Source: a virus
Virus record (IMG/VR): IMGVR_UViG_3300022751_000024
Span: 1-40,751 of that record
DNA: 40,751 nucleotides
Reading direction: 5' to 3' (one strand)
The notes below the pieces were generated by a model. The model saw only the letters and a list, made by a program, of their open reading frames with translations, searched no databases and was not told the origin of the DNA. Both the position numbers and the translations under genes were made by a program. This document shows, piece after piece, positions 10,005-40,209 of the stretch (position 1 is its first letter; each line of letters opens with the position of its first letter).

Positions 10005-10385
10005 TTATTCAAAAGCCTTATAGTATGCAATCTTATCAAGATAATCTTTCTCAGTCCATTTAGTAAATATTCCTTTTTTCTTGTAAAGCTCCTTAGCAAT
10101 CTTTCCCAATCTTAAACTATATTCATATTGGTTTCCTCCTAAGTTTATATTGCAGTGATAGCATTGAGCATGCACATTATCCTCATCAAAGTATAATTCT
10201 ACTCCCCCTATTGCCTTGCTAATAAAATGCCCAGCATGCATACTTCCTCCCTCACCTGACCTTCCACACGTAAAACAGATAAACTTGTCTCTACGACGAA
10301 TATAGAGGCTAAATAGAGCCCATAATTTGCGCTTCAGAGTTGATATTTTTTTAGGACTTACTTTCTTGAGTTTTGTTTTTTTCAT
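10005..10385 (-). CDS. NinG-like recombination/HNH-type nuclease
   Basis: 126 residues from ATG 10385, chosen because it forms an ATGA overlap with the preceding methyltransferase stop; a start at 10418 would add 11 residues deep in that gene. Features typical of lambda NinG/Rap-type proteins are visible: a Lys-rich N-terminus, LWALFSLYIRRRD, CFTCG and CYHC zinc-binding pairs, HAGHFISK between them, and DNVHAQCYHCN. NinG (Rap) is a branch-specific nuclease in phage recombination. Here it would pair functionally with the ERF protein at 13808. Last gene of a four-gene operon. Confidence 0.75.
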   Translation of the reverse strand: MKKTKLKKVSPKKISTLKRKLWALFSLYIRRRDKFICFTCGRSGEGGSMHAGHFISKAIGGVELYFDEDNVHAQCYHCNINLGGNQYEYSLRLGKIAKELYKKKGIFTKWTEKDYLDKIAYYKAFE

Positions 10386-10918
10386 AATATTATATCTGAT
10401 TTTATTTCGTTCCCCCAACTATCCCAACCATCTACTTTTTCTCGTGCGAATAGCTCTACTCGGGGTAAATCACCTAATAATTGAATAATTTTTTCTCGTA
10501 CTTCACTTGGTTTTTTACTGTGAGCTTCAATAGGTGTCATCACAACAGAATGGACTCTAGCTGATATCCTTTTAGGTTTACCTTTTGTTGCCAATAAACA
10601 TAATTCTGCATTTGCTCTAGTCCAACGACCCATTCCCATAAAAGGTGTTGGTTTATTCTTATTTAATTTTACCCAAGTAAAAGCTACAGTCTTGTATTCA
10701 AATCCCCATGCTTTTATTAAATCAAAACACTGATTTAACTTTGGCATAGTAACCCACATGAATAATACACAATCATTATCAGCTAAACTTTTCACATCAA
10801 TATTTTCCATATCTTTTGGTTGCATAGTTTCATAGTGATTATGAACTCCTCTATCTCCGTCCATTGAAGAATTATATCCCCATGCTGGGTCTGCGTATAT
10901 TATGTTGTATTTTTTCAT
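10382..10918 (-). CDS. MT-A70 family adenine-N6 DNA methyltransferase
   Basis: 178 residues. DPAW at residues 10-13 is the catalytic DPPW-type motif. FMWVTMPKLNQC and the W-x-K/RANAELCLLATKGKP region, then HSKKPSEVREKI and RVELFARE near the end, are the usual conserved blocks of MT-A70 phage methyltransferases. Full length for the compact phage form. It would protect phage DNA from restriction or mark it. ATGA overlaps on both sides show translational coupling. Confidence 0.85.
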   Translation of the reverse strand: MKKYNIIYADPAWGYNSSMDGDRGVHNHYETMQPKDMENIDVKSLADNDCVLFMWVTMPKLNQCFDLIKAWGFEYKTVAFTWVKLNKNKPTPFMGMGRWTRANAELCLLATKGKPKRISARVHSVVMTPIEAHSKKPSEVREKIIQLLGDLPRVELFAREKVDGWDSWGNEIKSDIIL

Positions 10919-13807: not shown

Positions 13808-14470
13808 ATGAAAATTTTAAACGAAATACAACAAAAACTAAAAGTACCAAAGCAAGTTAACAAATCAGTTTCTTATAAATCAAGAAGTGCTGAAGATATA
13901 ATAGAAATGGTTAAACCTTTACTAGGTGAAGCCATACTCACAATATCAGATGAGCTTATAATGGTAGGTGAAAGATACTATATAAAAGCAACTGCTACTA
14001 TTACAAATACAGAATCAGAACATGAAAAATTTTGTGATATTAGTTCTTATAGAAGAGGAGAAAAAGCAATAGGTAAACCAAAACCTCCATGCAGTTGTGG
14101 AGCAGATGAAAAATCTGTTGAATCTGTATCTGCTACAGCATATGCAAGAGAAGATGAAACACCTAAATTCATGTCGGTTGCTCAAGGAACTGGTAGTACA
14201 TCTTCATATGCACGTAAATACGCTCTAAATGGTCTGCTATTGATAGATGATACACAAGATGATGATACTAGACCTCATGTAGAACCAAAGAAACTTACAT
14301 TACCTGAACAAATCAGTGAAGCTATAAGTCAAGCAACTAATATAAAAGAACTTGAGACTATAGCAGATAAAACAAGAAAATCTGTAAAACTTACGGATAA
14401 TGAAAAAGATGTACTCATGGCAGAGATTGACTTCAAGTCAGAGGATTTATCAAACGAACTAACTAAATAA
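13808..14470 (+). CDS. erf: ERF family single-strand annealing recombinase
   Basis: 220 residues. The ERF domain spans about residues 5-155: SYKSRSAEDIIEMVKPLL near 23-40, a central beta region, then QGTGSTSSYARKYALNGLL and DDTQDDD, which are hallmark ERF blocks. The C-terminal third is a charged helical region. ERF proteins anneal complementary DNA strands and promote genome circularisation or recombination-dependent replication. An inserted CSCG pair at about 97-100 is unusual and might bind metal. It heads an operon with its own promoter. Confidence 0.85.
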   Translation: MKILNEIQQKLKVPKQVNKSVSYKSRSAEDIIEMVKPLLGEAILTISDELIMVGERYYIKATATITNTESEHEKFCDISSYRRGEKAIGKPKPPCSCGADEKSVESVSATAYAREDETPKFMSVAQGTGSTSSYARKYALNGLLLIDDTQDDDTRPHVEPKKLTLPEQISEAISQATNIKELETIADKTRKSVKLTDNEKDVLMAEIDFKSEDLSNELTK

Positions 14471-20741: not shown

Positions 20742-20957
20742 ATGAACAATTATACTGAAGAACAATTAAAAGATATTAAAGAGCGACAAGAAAAACTTAT
20801 TGCGTACTGTACAGAACTAGAGGTACAACCTCTTATTAGAGCAACTAAAGAACTTATTAAAGACGGTAACGTATATGCTGATAAACTAGAGATTGTACTC
20901 ATGGATACTAAATATATACCAAAAGAAGATAAAGTAATCGCTGAAAAAGTAAACTAA
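20742..20957 (+). CDS. Small protein in the chaperonin operon (71 aa)
   Basis: Charged helical protein (EEQLKDIKERQEKLIAYC), no family. Its stop overlaps the groES start (taATG), so it is probably co-translated with the chaperonin pair. Confidence 0.55.
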   Translation: MNNYTEEQLKDIKERQEKLIAYCTELEVQPLIRATKELIKDGNVYADKLEIVLMDTKYIPKEDKVIAEKVN

Positions 20958-21229
20958 TGATACACATTGAACCTTTTGGAAAAAATATTCTTGTTAGACC
21001 TAAAGAGAAGAAAACATATGCTTCTGTAAAGAACGCTAGTTTTACTGACGTAGGTGTGGTTATTGCTGTAGGTGACGAAGTAAAGAAGATTAAAGTAAAT
21101 GATGAAGTAGGGTTCGTGAACCACGGACTTCTATCGCTTGATTATGAGGGTACAAAGCTATACATGCTACCTGAGACAGATGATTTCCTCATGTGCAGAT
21201 TTATAGAAAAAGCAGATGAAATACTATAG
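20957..21229 (+). CDS. groES: GroES-like co-chaperonin (phage-encoded)
   Basis: 90 residues. IEPFGKNILVRPKEK at the start, GVVIAVGDEVKKIKVNDEVGF in the middle and the YMLPETDDFLMCRFIEK end match the GroES beta-barrel. The mobile loop that docks into GroEL is about 6 residues shorter than in E. coli and has no IVL triplet. Binding to the phage GroEL must therefore use a different contact. It overlaps the next gene by 14 bases and lies 226 bases before groEL. Confidence 0.8.
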   Translation: MIHIEPFGKNILVRPKEKKTYASVKNASFTDVGVVIAVGDEVKKIKVNDEVGFVNHGLLSLDYEGTKLYMLPETDDFLMCRFIEKADEIL

Positions 21230-21455
21230 CTTTGACAACAGTAAGTGCTTGAGGGGGTATCTTCATGATTTCAAGATAGTTGGAGAGTATGGGACTCATA
21301 CAAGAGAACGATGTACATATTGTCGTAAAGAAATGATGTTTAGTAAGCAATCAGGCAGAAATACATCACTACGATATCTTTCATATCATATTAAAAACGC
21401 TCTTACTCCACAACACTACCTGTTTTATTTACACTATCCACAATATAAAAAATAA
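21216..21455 (+). CDS. Small Cys-containing protein between groES and groEL (79 aa)
   Basis: Basic, Tyr-rich protein with a CTYC pair (about residues 33-36) and one further Cys. It overlaps groES by 14 bases, and its stop overlaps the groEL start. It may assist the chaperonin or be an unrelated passenger. Confidence 0.55.
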   Translation: MKYYSFDNSKCLRGYLHDFKIVGEYGTHTRERCTYCRKEMMFSKQSGRNTSLRYLSYHIKNALTPQHYLFYLHYPQYKK

Positions 21456-23122
21456 TGAATAACGTAACACAAGGAACAAAAGCTATACAAGGAATGATAG
21501 ACGGTATCAAGCTTGTAACTAATGCTATACGACCTACATATGGTCATAATGGTATCAACGTAGTAGTAGAAGCAGACCGATACCCATTTCACAAGGTAGC
21601 TAACGATGCTCAAACTATCATACAAGCTATTGAAACAGAAAACCCAGTACAAAATCGAGGACTTGGTTTCTTAAAAGAACTATCTGATAAGCAAAATGCA
21701 ACTTCGGGAGATGGTCGTAAAACCACATGTATCATAGCTGAAACCATACTTGAGGAGGGTTTTAAATCAGAACTTAAAGGAATGAACTTAAAGCGTGAAC
21801 TAGACGCTCTTATTCCTGTTATAGAGCAGAAGATTGACGAACATAAACGAGTTATAGATATAGATGAAGTACACAAGGTGGCAACAATTGCAGGTGAATC
21901 AGAATCAATCGGTAACCTTATAGGCTCAATCTACAAGACGATAGGTAAAGATGGAGTTATAACTGTAGAGGGTTCAGGTACATATGACGATGGTATCAAG
22001 TATATAGATGGTGTAAGGTTCAATGATTGTGGTTTCTTAAGTCCACTCATGGCTCACGATAAAGACTCTGACAAACACGGAGATACAGGTTCAAAGAAGA
22101 ATGAGAATGGTATGGAAACTATGGGAGATAAAGTTCTTACTAAAGCAGTCTATGAAAATCCACTCATCTTAGTAACGTATCAGAAAATGGAGAAGCAAGA
22201 ACACTTTGATACTATCCTTGGACTTATGGATAAGCACGGTAAAAAAGACCTTATTATCTTCACTCATGATATGGATAGTCGAGTGGCCCAAGTCCTACTA
22301 GACACCCATAAGCAAGAGATGTTCAACATTTGTATTATCAAAGCACCATCAGTATTCAGAATGGAAGTATTTGAAGACTTCGCAAAGGTAACAGGAGCTA
22401 CAGTTATATCAGACATCACAGGACTGGACTTAGCAGACTTGCCTATAGACCTTTCATTTTGTGGTACATGTTATAAAATTATAGTAGACAAGAACGAAAC
22501 AACTATTATCGGAACTCAAGATGTATCAGAACATATAGCCGAACTGAAAGCACAGAACACAGAACTAGCAAACATGCGTATTAAATGGCTATCAACAAAG
22601 ACAGCTGTACTTAAACTTGGAGCAAATAACGAGAGTGAGCTATCATACAGACGATTGAAGTGTGAAGATGCTGTAAATGCCTCACGATTAGCCCTACAAG
22701 ACGGCGTAGTGCAAGGAGGGGGTATAACCCTGTACAAAGTAGCTCACGAACTTCCAGACACTGTAGCAGGCGATATATTGCGAACGGCACTTATTGCTCC
22801 AGTATGCCAGATTATGACGAATGCGGGAGAAGCAAAAAAACCACTTATGATGTTTTCAGGAGCAGATAAACTAAAACTCAAAGATATAAATACTACAGGT
22901 GAAATAATAATGTTACCTGAAGGAGTAGAAATGAAGACACTACCTGACTACATGTTTGATATACCTGATACATTTGGAGATAATGTCCTTGACGCTTCAC
23001 TTGTAACTAAGAACGCTATTCGCAATGCAATATCACTCGCTTCAACAGTCCTTACTACAGGAGTAGTTATCACACTACCTCCAAAGGAGAAAGAATTACC
23101 AAATAAACCATTTACAATATAA
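21455..23122 (+). CDS. groEL: GroEL-like group I chaperonin (phage-encoded)
   Basis: 555 residues, close to the usual 548. Nucleotide-site residues are kept: KVANDAQ with Asp51, SGDGRKTT with Asp86 and KCEDAVNAS with Asp405 (E. coli 52, 87, 398), and GGG at 421-423. The usual GDGTTT is GDGRKTT. The apical domain carries an insertion of about 20 residues (roughly 199-232), rich in Asp, Lys and Asn. The C-terminus lacks the GGM repeat tail. It looks active as an ATPase. Its place directly ahead of terminase and capsid genes suggests folding of structural proteins. Phage GroEL genes are rare but known (for example Pseudomonas phage EL). Confidence 0.9.
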   Translation: MNNVTQGTKAIQGMIDGIKLVTNAIRPTYGHNGINVVVEADRYPFHKVANDAQTIIQAIETENPVQNRGLGFLKELSDKQNATSGDGRKTTCIIAETILEEGFKSELKGMNLKRELDALIPVIEQKIDEHKRVIDIDEVHKVATIAGESESIGNLIGSIYKTIGKDGVITVEGSGTYDDGIKYIDGVRFNDCGFLSPLMAHDKDSDKHGDTGSKKNENGMETMGDKVLTKAVYENPLILVTYQKMEKQEHFDTILGLMDKHGKKDLIIFTHDMDSRVAQVLLDTHKQEMFNICIIKAPSVFRMEVFEDFAKVTGATVISDITGLDLADLPIDLSFCGTCYKIIVDKNETTIIGTQDVSEHIAELKAQNTELANMRIKWLSTKTAVLKLGANNESELSYRRLKCEDAVNASRLALQDGVVQGGGITLYKVAHELPDTVAGDILRTALIAPVCQIMTNAGEAKKPLMMFSGADKLKLKDINTTGEIIMLPEGVEMKTLPDYMFDIPDTFGDNVLDASLVTKNAIRNAISLASTVLTTGVVITLPPKEKELPNKPFTI

Positions 23123-23280
23123 TGTTTAAGAAAAAAACATGTAATGCTTGCAATAAAAAGAGTTTCTTTGTAAAGATACGTCAATATGATGCTCCGACCG
23201 TATCAAAATACCCTATTACATCTAAAGGAGAACTCTGTAGACGATGTTATAAACAATTAAAGAAAATAATACCAAGATAA
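23122..23280 (+). CDS. Small zinc-ribbon protein (52 aa)
   Basis: The ATG overlaps the groEL stop (taATG). TCNACNKKSFF and LCRRCYKQLKK form a two-pair CxxC zinc ribbon with basic surroundings. Possibly nucleic-acid-binding. Confidence 0.55.
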   Translation: MFKKKTCNACNKKSFFVKIRQYDAPTVSKYPITSKGELCRRCYKQLKKIIPR

Positions 23281-23731: not shown

Positions 23732-24209
23732 CCCTAATGGAGCAAATGGAACAACATCAGACCCTAGAGAGCAAATAACATGGGATATTTATGTTGAAAA
23801 TCTAGCAAAAGGAATAGATAATGCTTATAAAAGTGCTATAGATGGAGGTTATGAAGATAGTAGTGCTAAACACATAACACTTAGACGATGGTTTATCGAA
23901 AGAAAAGAAAATCTAGAACGTCAAGACATGCTATCAGATGCAGAAAAAGTATTACGTAAAACATTAAGATACAATGTAGAAAGAACTAATAAAGAGACAG
24001 GAGAGACAGAGATAAAGACTGACTTACTTAGAATACAAACAGATGTGGCAAAGACAGTAGCAACTACACTAGGTAAAGATAAAGGATATTCAACTAGAGT
24101 AGAGAACACAGGAAAGAATGGACAGGATTTAATAAACACGGTATTAGTACATTTCTTAGATAAACAAGATGAACCCACAAATAACGATATCGATACCGAT
24201 AGAGTATAA
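23718..24209 (+). CDS. terS: Terminase small subunit (putative)
   Basis: 163 residues from ATG 23718, preferred to 23697 for its 'caatATGG' context. A helical N-terminal part with an HTH-like segment (SSAKHITLRRWFIE) is followed by a coiled oligomerisation region and an acidic C-terminus. It overlaps the large subunit gene by 41 bases. The assignment rests on position, size and a helical DNA-binding pattern; sequence signature is modest. Confidence 0.65.
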   Translation: MAETNPNGANGTTSDPREQITWDIYVENLAKGIDNAYKSAIDGGYEDSSAKHITLRRWFIERKENLERQDMLSDAEKVLRKTLRYNVERTNKETGETEIKTDLLRIQTDVAKTVATTLGKDKGYSTRVENTGKNGQDLINTVLVHFLDKQDEPTNNDIDTDRV

Positions 24210-25560
24210 AAGACTATTCGATACTGACTGGAGAGAGGTTGCAGTATGGGGAGGAAGATACTCAATGAAATCGCATAGTGTTGCGAGAGTTCTTCTAATT
24301 AGAGCAAGACAAAAGAAAATACGTATACTATGTTGTCGTGAATTCCAAAACTCAATAGCAGAATCATCACACCAATTATTATCTGACCTTATAAAGCAAT
24401 ATGGACTAAATGACTTTGAGATAACTGATAAGTCTATTGTAAATAAGATAACAGGCTCAGACTTTATCTTTAAAGGTCTATGGAATAACGAACAGTCATT
24501 AAAGTCTATTGAAGGTATTGATATAGCATGGGTAGAAGAAGCACAAACTATCACTAAGGCAAGTCTTGAAGTACTCACACCTACTATTCGTAAAGACGGT
24601 TCACAGATTATATATACATACAACCGATTGACAGTAAGTGACCCAGTACACGTAAGACTAGTTGAAGAGGGAAGACCTAACACGTTGTTAATAAACGTAA
24701 ACTATGATGTGGCCGATAAATATGGATTCTTGCCTGATGTCATAAAACAAGAGATTGAAGACGATAGACTGAAACGACCTATCTTGTACAAGCAGAAATG
24801 GTTAGGAGAGCCATATGTAAGTCCTAATGACTTGCTTTCACTGCTTATCCTTACGAAGTGTTTGAACCCTGATGTTAACTCCCAAGAGGGTAGAACTATA
24901 ATTGGTATGGATACAGGACATGACATCTACTACACACTCATGAACAAACAAGGAGTGTTCTATCATGGATATTGTCAAAGCCCTCAAGAAGTAAATGACC
25001 CTAACTATGACCCATATGATGAAATAGATAAACTTATGAGAAACAATCCTAGATGGGTACTTGTAGCTGACCAAGGAGGAGATTTGATTGGTATACGTAA
25101 AATGCAAGCTAAATACCCAGGTAGAGTATTCTTAGTATGGTTTGTTAAAGAAACAAAGACTAAACAGCTTATTCGTTGGGGAGAAGATACAGAACAAGGC
25201 AAAGTATTGGTAGATAGAAACAGAACCATTCAACTAGCAGTAGACCAACTAAACGAACAGCTCATAACCTTTAATGGAAGTAAGGAAGATTGGATGCCTT
25301 TCTTTGAACATTGCATGAACATATACCGTGTAAAAGAGATAACAGGTGATGAAAACGACCCACAATATGGATGGAGATGGGTGTGGAAGCGTAAAGGACC
25401 TGACCACTGGTTTATGTCTATGATATATGCCCTTGTAGGTATGGATAAATACGGAGGAGACTTAGCTCAAATTATTAACAACAACATAACATTTCATACT
25501 GGAAGTAATCCTAATGGAACTATGAATCCTGGTATGTTAAAATATGGTAGACCACTATAA
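24169..25560 (+). CDS. terL: Terminase large subunit
   Basis: 463 residues. ATPase domain: Walker A GGRYSMKS at 28-35 (a Tyr and a Met replace the usual small residues), Walker B IDIAWVEEAQ at 117-126, and a YNR motif near 151. Nuclease domain: IIGMDTG with Asp248, ADQGG with Asp301, and PDHWFMSMIYA with Asp412, a plausible RNase H-like metal triad. The pattern is that of PBSX/Terminase_3-type enzymes. Packaging motor and headful or site-specific cutting. The circularly permuted assembly fits headful packaging but does not prove it. Confidence 0.9.
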   Translation: MNPQITISIPIEYKRLFDTDWREVAVWGGRYSMKSHSVARVLLIRARQKKIRILCCREFQNSIAESSHQLLSDLIKQYGLNDFEITDKSIVNKITGSDFIFKGLWNNEQSLKSIEGIDIAWVEEAQTITKASLEVLTPTIRKDGSQIIYTYNRLTVSDPVHVRLVEEGRPNTLLINVNYDVADKYGFLPDVIKQEIEDDRLKRPILYKQKWLGEPYVSPNDLLSLLILTKCLNPDVNSQEGRTIIGMDTGHDIYYTLMNKQGVFYHGYCQSPQEVNDPNYDPYDEIDKLMRNNPRWVLVADQGGDLIGIRKMQAKYPGRVFLVWFVKETKTKQLIRWGEDTEQGKVLVDRNRTIQLAVDQLNEQLITFNGSKEDWMPFFEHCMNIYRVKEITGDENDPQYGWRWVWKRKGPDHWFMSMIYALVGMDKYGGDLAQIINNNITFHTGSNPNGTMNPGMLKYGRPL

Positions 25561-29136: not shown

Positions 29137-30159
29137 ATGCTTCCAGACGCAAATATATTAACTACGGTTAATAACTATCTAGGTAACTCTTGGGTTGACC
29201 AAGTGCTACGAGATAACAAATTCTTTGGAGAAGTATTGTCAAATACAAAAGATTTCAAAGCAGGACTTATGAACTTTCCTATGAAATATCAGAAAGGTAA
29301 CGCTTCAGTTTCTTTTAACGGATTTGACCAACTTCCAACTTCGCAGCAACCTGTATCAGTTAACATGACTTTCTATCCTACATTCGTTGCTACAAACGTA
29401 GCCCTATCAGGAACAGACCTTTCAGTTAACAAAACACAAATGCAAACTATCGACCTTATGAAAGTAACTATGGCTTCACGAGCACAAGATGCTGCTGATG
29501 ACGTTGGTAACTACTTCCAAGGTAATGGTATCGGTAAAGACCCATCAGGTCTTGGAAATATCGTTGACGATGGTACAGTAGCTTCAACATACGGAGGACT
29601 TTCACGAGCAACTTACACTGGCCTAAACGCTACAGTAACAGCTTCAGGAGGAACTATCTCACTATTGAAGGTACGACAATTAGCAAACAGTATTACAGAT
29701 GGTAGTGTAGAACCTACATTCGCTATCACAGACTATACAACTTGGTCATACTTCGAGCAGCTTCTAATGCCATTCCAGATGAATATGTATAACACATTCA
29801 ACGGAAAAGCAGAGAATGCTTCAACAGGTTATCAGGGTCTATACTGGGATGGTCTTAACATCAAACGAGATAAAAAGATTACTACAGGTAACTTCTATCT
29901 ATTGAACATGAATTATCTAAAGTTCTATGGTCTAAAATACTATGATGGAGAAAGTGTAACATTGTCATCTAAACTCATTATCGGAAACATCTATGAGAAT
30001 GGTTATGACAGAGCAAATGCTAATAAGGCATTTACATGGACAGGATTCATCAAACCTTACAACCAAGCGGCAGTAAACGGATTCATGATTATGGGAGGAC
30101 AACTTCTTTCTACAAACCCATGGAGAAATGGAAAGCTAACAGGTGTAACAGGAATCTAA
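29137..30159 (+). CDS. Major capsid protein
   Basis: 340 residues. Length, mixed alpha/beta composition, and position after the scaffold point to an HK97-fold coat protein. An Ala/Gln/Asp helix (SRAQDAADDVGNYFQ, about 108-122) reads as a spine helix, and a beta-rich region with LLMPFQMNMYNTFNG follows. The start is close to the mature N-terminus, so no large pro-region is evident. It has Ile/Asn/Tyr-rich C-terminal strands. Confidence 0.8.
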   Translation: MLPDANILTTVNNYLGNSWVDQVLRDNKFFGEVLSNTKDFKAGLMNFPMKYQKGNASVSFNGFDQLPTSQQPVSVNMTFYPTFVATNVALSGTDLSVNKTQMQTIDLMKVTMASRAQDAADDVGNYFQGNGIGKDPSGLGNIVDDGTVASTYGGLSRATYTGLNATVTASGGTISLLKVRQLANSITDGSVEPTFAITDYTTWSYFEQLLMPFQMNMYNTFNGKAENASTGYQGLYWDGLNIKRDKKITTGNFYLLNMNYLKFYGLKYYDGESVTLSSKLIIGNIYENGYDRANANKAFTWTGFIKPYNQAAVNGFMIMGGQLLSTNPWRNGKLTGVTGI

Positions 30160-39117: not shown

Positions 39118-40209
39118 ATGTTATCATTCACAGACTTAAAAACAAAATACGGAAAATTAACACAAAACACTTCAACTGCTAACCTAGATAGTGGAGGTGA
39201 GTACATGAACATTTACCAAAAGTACTTACTTGAAAAGTATTACAGTAACGAGGGTTCATTCAGTATGACAACTGTAGGAAGTCAATCACTTACAGCAACG
39301 GGTGCTTTATCAGCAGGTGCAACATCACTAACACTGACAACTAACTGGCTATATCATACAACTCAAGCAATTATAACATTCTCAAGTGGAGATACACGAT
39401 TAGCTACTTTTAACAGAGGTTCAACAGCCGTTACATGGGCCGTAGGACTGTCTACAACAGCCACCACAGCACTTTCAGTAGGAGGTCTACAGTTCTACCC
39501 ACTACCGCCTAATTACTCTAAATTGAAGACGTTTACAATCACTCAAGGCAATCTAAAATGGGTGCCAACAGAGATACTTTCACGACAAGAATGGGATAAC
39601 ATGAACATGTTCCCTTATTATTCAGATATCCCAAACTACTACTACATTTATGGCGGAAATATAGGAGTATGGCCAATACCTGTTACAACTGGAAATACAA
39701 TCACATCTAACTACAAATATAGAATACCTGATTTATCTCTTGAAGATGCTACTGCAGGAACAGTATCCATATCAAATGGAGGTACTACAGTTACAGGAAC
39801 TACAACAGCCTGGACACCAACTACTAACCCACAAAATGAGAGTAGATGGATTAAAATTGCACAGACAGCAGGAGATAACCTGTGGTATCAAGTCCAGAGT
39901 GTAACTAGTACTACATCACTCACACTATACGAACCATATCAAGGTATAGCAGTAACAGGAGGAACTTATATTCTAGGGCAAATGCCTATTCTTATCGAGG
40001 ACTTTCACGATATGCTCATTTGGTATGCATGTGTGGTGTACTTCTCATCAATTGTAGATAATCCTCAAAAAGTAAAACAATTCCAAGACATGTTAAACAT
40101 GAAACTAGAATTGCTTAATGAATACGCAGGAAGCAAATCGGTTAATGTAGATTTATCAAAAAAACCAAACATGATGAACCCTAACTTGTTTCAAACTAAC
40201 TTATCATAA
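39118..40209 (+). CDS. Head-tail connector / tail tubular A-like protein (363 aa)
   Basis: Helical N-terminus, the YYIYGGNIGVWPIPVTTGN block near the centre, an inserted beta domain (SISNGGTTVTGTTTAW), and a C-terminal helix (QKVKQFQDMLNMKLELLNE). This combination is common in podovirus gatekeeper/adaptor proteins (T7 gp11 or P22 gp4 class). It directly precedes the ejection protein gene. Confidence 0.65.
   Translation: MLSFTDLKTKYGKLTQNTSTANLDSGGEYMNIYQKYLLEKYYSNEGSFSMTTVGSQSLTATGALSAGATSLTLTTNWLYHTTQAIITFSSGDTRLATFNRGSTAVTWAVGLSTTATTALSVGGLQFYPLPPNYSKLKTFTITQGNLKWVPTEILSRQEWDNMNMFPYYSDIPNYYYIYGGNIGVWPIPVTTGNTITSNYKYRIPDLSLEDATAGTVSISNGGTTVTGTTTAWTPTTNPQNESRWIKIAQTAGDNLWYQVQSVTSTTSLTLYEPYQGIAVTGGTYILGQMPILIEDFHDMLIWYACVVYFSSIVDNPQKVKQFQDMLNMKLELLNEYAGSKSVNVDLSKKPNMMNPNLFQTNLS

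Follow-up and report, generated by a model that had tools for sequence, protein, structure and literature searches.

In the E. coli chaperonin, the IVL triplet of GroES touches L234, L237 and V264 of GroEL, and GroEL N265A does not bind GroES while substrate is still bound (PMC3514286). Chaperonin-lid specificity is not readable from contact residues alone, and distant residues can matter (PMC3514286). Mitochondrial Hsp60 works only with its own co-chaperonin, Hsp10, and its contact residues stay hydrophobic (V232, L235, and L262) (PMC3514286). T4 gp31 and RB49 CocO are phage-encoded co-chaperonins; gp31, a Cpn10 fold without roof loops, helps the major capsid protein to fold (PMC6318259) and uses the host GroEL. 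The giant phages EL, OBP, and AR9 encode GroEL homologues (gp146, gp246, and gp228, respectively) that work without a known co-chaperonin (PMC9598537, PMC7185714), and in the EL chaperonin the apical groove is remodelled (PMC7185714). Both groES and groEL are carried by the Flavobacterium phages elemo and immuto, Bacteroides phage DAC19, and Cellulophaga phage phi40:1, whose GroELs have no GGM tail. In a literature search of incomplete coverage, we found no description of the lineage or the gene cassette reported here.

The cassette was found in the virus record IMGVR_UViG_3300022751_000024, of which a stretch of 40,751 bases, hereafter the window, was analysed. As the first-pass annotation had proposed, there is a groES-like co-chaperonin gene (20957 to 21229, 90 aa) together with a groEL-like gene (21455 to 23122, 555 aa), both on the plus strand, as are all other genes of this region named below, and groES precedes groEL as in E. 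coli. The two small proteins that it had left unnamed are also encoded as open reading frames (ORFs), i.e., an acidic protein of 71 aa 5' of groES (20742 to 20957) and, between groES and groEL, a 79-aa zinc-ribbon-like protein with a CHCC pattern (C11, H17, C33, and C36; 21216 to 21455), which represents a conserved family and is here called zr. The groES, zr, and groEL ORFs abut or overlap one another. Directly 3' of groEL lies a four-cysteine protein of 52 aa (23122 to 23280), followed by a 101-aa protein, a TerS-like ORF, and the terminase large subunit (24169 to 25560; PF04466, E=8.9e-33), and the major head protein gene (29137 to 30159; phrog_9953, E=2.1e-34) is found approximately 6 kb beyond groEL. 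The 52-aa protein recurs in the lineage described below, with tblastn matches of 34 to 51% identity in at least 17 loci, and its matches to zinc ribbons were weak only. The 71-aa protein has relatives in the corresponding location of other lineage members: tblastn matches of 35 to 47% identity were obtained in L042, L045, L054, and L055, and small YTxEQ proteins resembling it by inspection precede groES in L021, L023, L192, and L194. Elsewhere, the window encodes an SLT transglycosylase (1026 to 2723), an MT-A70 methyltransferase (10382 to 10918, minus strand), an ERF recombinase (13808 to 14470), and an SU10-type adaptor (39118 to 40209).

Used as a single query, the window GroEL did not retrieve any relative from IMG/VR viral contigs. 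The window terminase large subunit retrieved 28 IMG/VR loci, several of them with the same cassette, and further relatives were collected by scans with GroEL, zr, and capsid-protein alignments plus searches of whole records, resulting in a set of 62 distinct groEL genes, each coding for 300 aa or more. A scan of genome contigs gave a single, ordinary Desulfovibrio GroEL, from which no host was assigned. Linkage was counted over the 49 distinct groEL genes with more than 700 nt of upstream sequence. Among these, zr sits 5' of groEL in 49/49 records and groES precedes zr in 48/49, the sole exception being cut off by the contig end. Of the records with a capsid gene, 13 showed no cassette close by, and these were searched over their whole length. 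All seven of at least 28 kb carry groEL elsewhere, a 16.7-kb record has just part of groEL, at the edge, and no match was obtained in the other five, which are fragments of less than 24 kb. In three records (L118/L192, L120/L194, and L158/L190), the cassette and the capsid gene are on opposite strands, and the order groES, zr, groEL is unbroken.

In a tree of 62 GroELs, bacterial ones among them, 39 near-full-length lineage members formed one clade with 100/100 support and a stem of 1.13 changes/site, while the bacterial GroELs sampled fell outside it. The distant contig L002 and one Manatee Spring phage adjoin this clade, with weaker support and on long branches. The groES and groEL genes belong to an old, uncultured phage lineage. 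Across the 25 loci having all four genes, median pairwise identity was highest for the major head protein (67%), followed by GroEL (39%), zr (36%), and GroES (27%). The major head protein was more conserved than GroEL in 299/299 pairs, a count that is only descriptive because these pairs are related and therefore not independent.

The window GroEL matched PF00118 over residues 21 to 539 (E=1.3e-29; 103.7 bits with a cut-off of 34.3) and phrog_5725 among the PHROGs (E=7.9e-72). Its top PDB match was a group I ancestor (8.7e-55), with an ancestral group II chaperonin reaching only 1.3e-9 and EL gp146 (6tmt), at E=5.8e-9, falling well behind bacterial GroELs. The protein is thus a group I chaperonin, closer to GroEL than to group II, and it is homologous to E. 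coli GroEL with an identity of about 29 to 30%. The ATP-site aspartates are retained (D52, D87, D398, and D495), in line with the earlier reading of the sequence, as is the GGG at 421 to 423, and T89/T90 are replaced by R/K. D52 and D398 are conserved in all 39 lineage GroELs, and D87 in 36 of them. On the basis of the conserved catalytic aspartates, the phage GroEL would be expected to bind and hydrolyze ATP, but ATP handling may differ in parts of the lineage, since the adenine loop N479-A481 is missing in 13/23 clade A relatives.

Both allosteric salt bridges of E. coli GroEL are also changed. R197 is lost in 39/39 lineage GroELs, while 12/14 other phage GroELs have R or K at this position, and D83, replaced in the window too, is mostly K across the lineage. 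The partners of E386 and K327 are thereby removed. The D83A/R197A variant of E. coli GroEL is described as allosterically compromised, with a destabilised taut state (PMC5941174). By analogy with this mutant, loss of the R197-E386 and D83-K327 bridges suggests a less stable closed T state in the phage proteins, from which the apical domains would open more readily. Most lineage members also lack the inter-ring residues, including R452 and E434.

The assignment of the window GroES is firm at the level of the family and weak for the single sequence. On its own, the protein scored 18.4 bits against PF00166 (E=0.0023), under the Pfam cut-off of 21.1, and matched phrog_3188 with E=1.3e-4, while its relative in L021 passed the Pfam cut-off with 23.0 bits. 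When GroES families were compared with bacterial GroES by hhalign, a probability of 97.3 and E=2.7e-11 were obtained for the family of the window clade (A11), and E=1.5e-8 for the family of the second clade. An AlphaFold2 prediction of the monomer (pLDDT 85) is a Cpn10 beta-barrel, aligning to Cpn10 structures over 66 to 83 residues with Z of about 9 to 12 (12.2 to M. tuberculosis Cpn10, 1p3h; 10.5 to the GroES of 1aon; 9.2 to gp31, 1g31). The roof hairpin is absent in the window GroES and its clade, as in gp31 and unlike E. coli GroES, and the length of this region varies in the second clade. By inspection, the roof is similarly reduced in elemoC and DAC19.

The mobile loop of the window GroES, from P15 to G33 (20999 to 21055), has 19 residues, which by direct sequence count is 6 fewer than in E. 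coli. The same span is 19 residues in 35/46 alignment rows, 17 to 20 in ten others, and 25 in one. hhalign places a 5-residue gap immediately before the IVL triplet, where the window has YAS, and residues 20 to 23, within the loop, are the only part of the model with pLDDT below 50. The loops of elemoC and DAC19, by inspection, have the E. coli length, and that of gp31, which acts with the host GroEL where this phage brings its own, is longer than the one found here. The first-pass annotation had described a shortened loop lacking the IVL triplet. The shortening proved to be a property of the lineage, but the loss of the triplet did not: in 44/46 rows, at least two of the three residues at this position are hydrophobic, which makes the window with its YAS an exception. 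The loop consensus is KKQILVSD for one clade and FIAS for the second.

On the GroEL side, the contact positions for GroES lie in the region of helices H and I (residues 246 to 287; 22190 to 22315), where D252, L255, A278, L282, D283, T284, and K286 of the window protein are equivalent to L234, L237, L259, V263, V264, N265, and M267 of E. coli GroEL. The position of L234 is occupied by N, E, D, A, G, T, or S in all lineage GroELs (hydrophobic in 0/39), and it ranks second by departure among 61 hydrophobic apical positions, of which the median position is 97% retained. None of the 39 proteins has V at V264 (A, K, L, E, D, R, Q, S, and others instead). All 39 have T, A, or L in place of N265, and most have K, A, or R in place of M267. 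Among 14 other phage GroELs sampled, by comparison, N265 is kept in 13 and falls in a gap in one. Mitochondrial Hsp60 likewise differs from the lineage, since its contacts stay hydrophobic while L234 and, mostly, V264 are here polar or small. Hydrophobic character is kept at V263 and F204 in all lineage members, at Y199 in nearly all, and at L237 in most. The earlier suggestion of changes on both sides of the contact is thus supported, with L234, V264, and N265 replaced throughout and the GroES loop shortened, and it extends from one phage to the whole lineage.

Two further features had been put forward as signs of an altered docking surface, namely an apical insertion of about 20 residues and the lack of a GGM tail. 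The insertion is real, comprising 23 residues relative to E. coli (about residues 207 to 229; 22073 to 22141) just past the equivalents of E. coli Y203/F204. It lies in a loop of variable length, with 32 residues in the window, 7 to 16 in 38 relatives, and 9 in E. coli, and its length is therefore private to this phage. The GGM tail, present in E. coli, is indeed absent from the window GroEL, but it is not distinctive, as none of the 14 other phage GroELs sampled carries one, and we dropped it as a marker. The insertion and the missing tail therefore say little in favor of a private pair, and less than the first-pass annotation had taken them to say.

The zr gene has no counterpart between groES and groEL in E. 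coli, and the protein found between Cpn10 and GroEL in phi40:1 lacks the zinc motif. In an alignment of 51 zr rows, C11, C33, and C36 are invariant and H17 is present in at least 90%, a ligand pattern from which we infer that zr may bind zinc. The predicted structure of zr (pLDDT 86) did not give any significant match in fold searches (lowest Foldseek E 0.23, highest Z 2.7), nor did the sequence against PHROGs and Pfam, and two zr proteins had no tblastn match in 50,697 phage records. For scans with zr, two closer alignment subsets were used, since the nine-row zr alignment was too diverse. No zr was found without groEL in the lineage records recovered. In L002, groES is followed by a zr-like gene (HMM E=2.9e-13), one extra ORF, and groEL. 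The widest gap within a cassette, 1.2 kb, was seen in L023 (6338 to 7539), where zr and groEL are separated by several small ORFs, one of them HNH-endonuclease-like.

From this linkage, we lean slightly towards a role for zr in the chaperonin machine. There is a substantial chance, although somewhat short of even, that zr is instead an unrelated neighbor, e.g., a packaging or head accessory protein, whose position reflects common descent and a compact gene arrangement. All members belong to one phage lineage, so the linkage must partly be inherited, and another small four-cysteine protein comes after groEL. Against such a passive association, zr kept its position between groES and groEL in every record counted while other neighbors vary, it traveled with them in the three rearranged records, a similar small protein occupies the same place in the distant L002, and zr was not encountered apart from groEL. 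Of the parts of the cassette, zr is the one that could prove new in kind. A stronger version, i.e., a three-part viral chaperonin of GroEL, GroES, and an obligate zr, is tentative and seems to us doubtful. In it, zr would be an adaptor, a loading factor, or a piece of the lid, and the lid would dock in a way distinct from cellular GroES, making the machine orthogonal to that of the host.

The reading that we favor, and regard as reasonably likely, is that the cassette encodes a chaperonin dedicated to phage morphogenesis, i.e., the phage's own group I system with remodelled lid docking and a co-diverged pair of GroEL and GroES. In this scheme, the cassette would have been inherited with the head genes over a long time, and phage proteins would be enclosed under a roofless GroES dome, much as by gp31 on the host GroEL. 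Most likely, the main client would be the major head protein, given that the cassette adjoins the terminase and head genes and that gp31 provides a precedent. The groove between GroEL helices H and I is more polar where L234, V264, N265, and M267 are replaced and stays hydrophobic at V263, F204, and mostly L237, and the GroES loop has lost about 5 residues before its short hydrophobic motif. Since the groove is part polar and part hydrophobic and the loop is shortened before the motif, the lid probably docks by its loop in an altered geometry, and mainly with its cognate partner. The zr protein would probably be a dedicated partner of the machine. Chaperonins such as those of phage EL and mitochondria make it plausible that the pair would not interchange with that of the host. 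Several points weigh against this scheme: the docking triplet of the window GroES itself is weak, the adenine loop is deleted in over half of the clade A relatives, specificity can be governed by residues distant from the interface (PMC3514286), and the head protein as client is argued from gene order and gp31.

Some of the same observations could be accommodated by a divergent but conventional GroES/GroEL with the usual docking and with parts exchangeable with those of the host, the changes being compensated within the same groove. The hydrophobic residues remaining at V263, F204, Y199, and mostly L237, the hydrophobic loop triplets of the relatives (e.g., ILV or FIA), and the acceptance of co-chaperonins of many origins by E. 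coli GroEL (PMC3514286) would all fit such a pair. We nevertheless consider it unlikely, as N265 and L234 are lost from every lineage GroEL, the loop is short in nearly all members, and no interaction with E. coli GroES was seen for the divergent chaperonin of phage EL (PMC7185714). It is also rather improbable that the two genes work apart, with a lidless phage GroEL like those of EL, OBP, and AR9 and a phage GroES acting on the host GroEL like gp31. Such a division has precedents in the phage chaperonins that need no known lid, in the narrower and shallower groove of EL, and in lone phage GroES genes, e.g., that of DSL-LC05, and the loss of N265 recalls the E. coli mutant that binds substrate and not GroES. 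However, in contrast to the giant phages, the lineage has groES next to zr and groEL in all records but one, and the two genes are inseparable even when the cassette is on the other strand; the shortened loop is not obviously suited to that of the host. Finally, the pair might be explained by host capture or assembly contamination. Two records listed as phage in the public collection, L005 (MT835992.1) and L010 (CAKLQH020000021.1), look bacterial-chromosomal around groES-groEL. Identity to the best bacterial GroELs (plasmids, alignments) is approximately 30%, the lineage GroELs form a separate clade, phage terminase and capsid genes share the contig, and dozens of independent contigs have the same layout, making this explanation exceedingly improbable. 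A recent host gene capture, which the first-pass annotation had asked phylogeny to check, is ruled out by the tree and the synteny.

If the dedicated, co-diverged pair is the right reading, the lineage would represent a large family of natural chaperonins with a rebuilt lid contact, in which it could be studied how chaperonin and lid stay matched while both change, and which could be a source of pairs that keep apart from those of the host. The strict linkage of zr suggests a new chaperonin partner. A capsid protein changing more slowly than the chaperonin also reverses the usual view of GroEL as being among the most conserved proteins.

Some minor observations concern the terminase and head genes of the relatives. 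L026 and L028 have only the ATPase half of the terminase in common with the lineage (74 to 78% identity), and the chaperonin cassette is absent from the approximately 3 to 4 kb upstream; these are mosaic terminases. In L160, L178, and L187, the capsid-protein HMM match is broken into two segments with a few hundred bases between them, which suggests an intron, an intein, or a frameshift in the major head gene. In L021 (7399 to 9717) and L015 (2474 to 4789), the terminase large subunit has an insert of approximately 310 to 330 residues after GGR[YF] with matches to Hint/Hom_end_hint; the ATPase domain of these terminases thus probably contains an intein.
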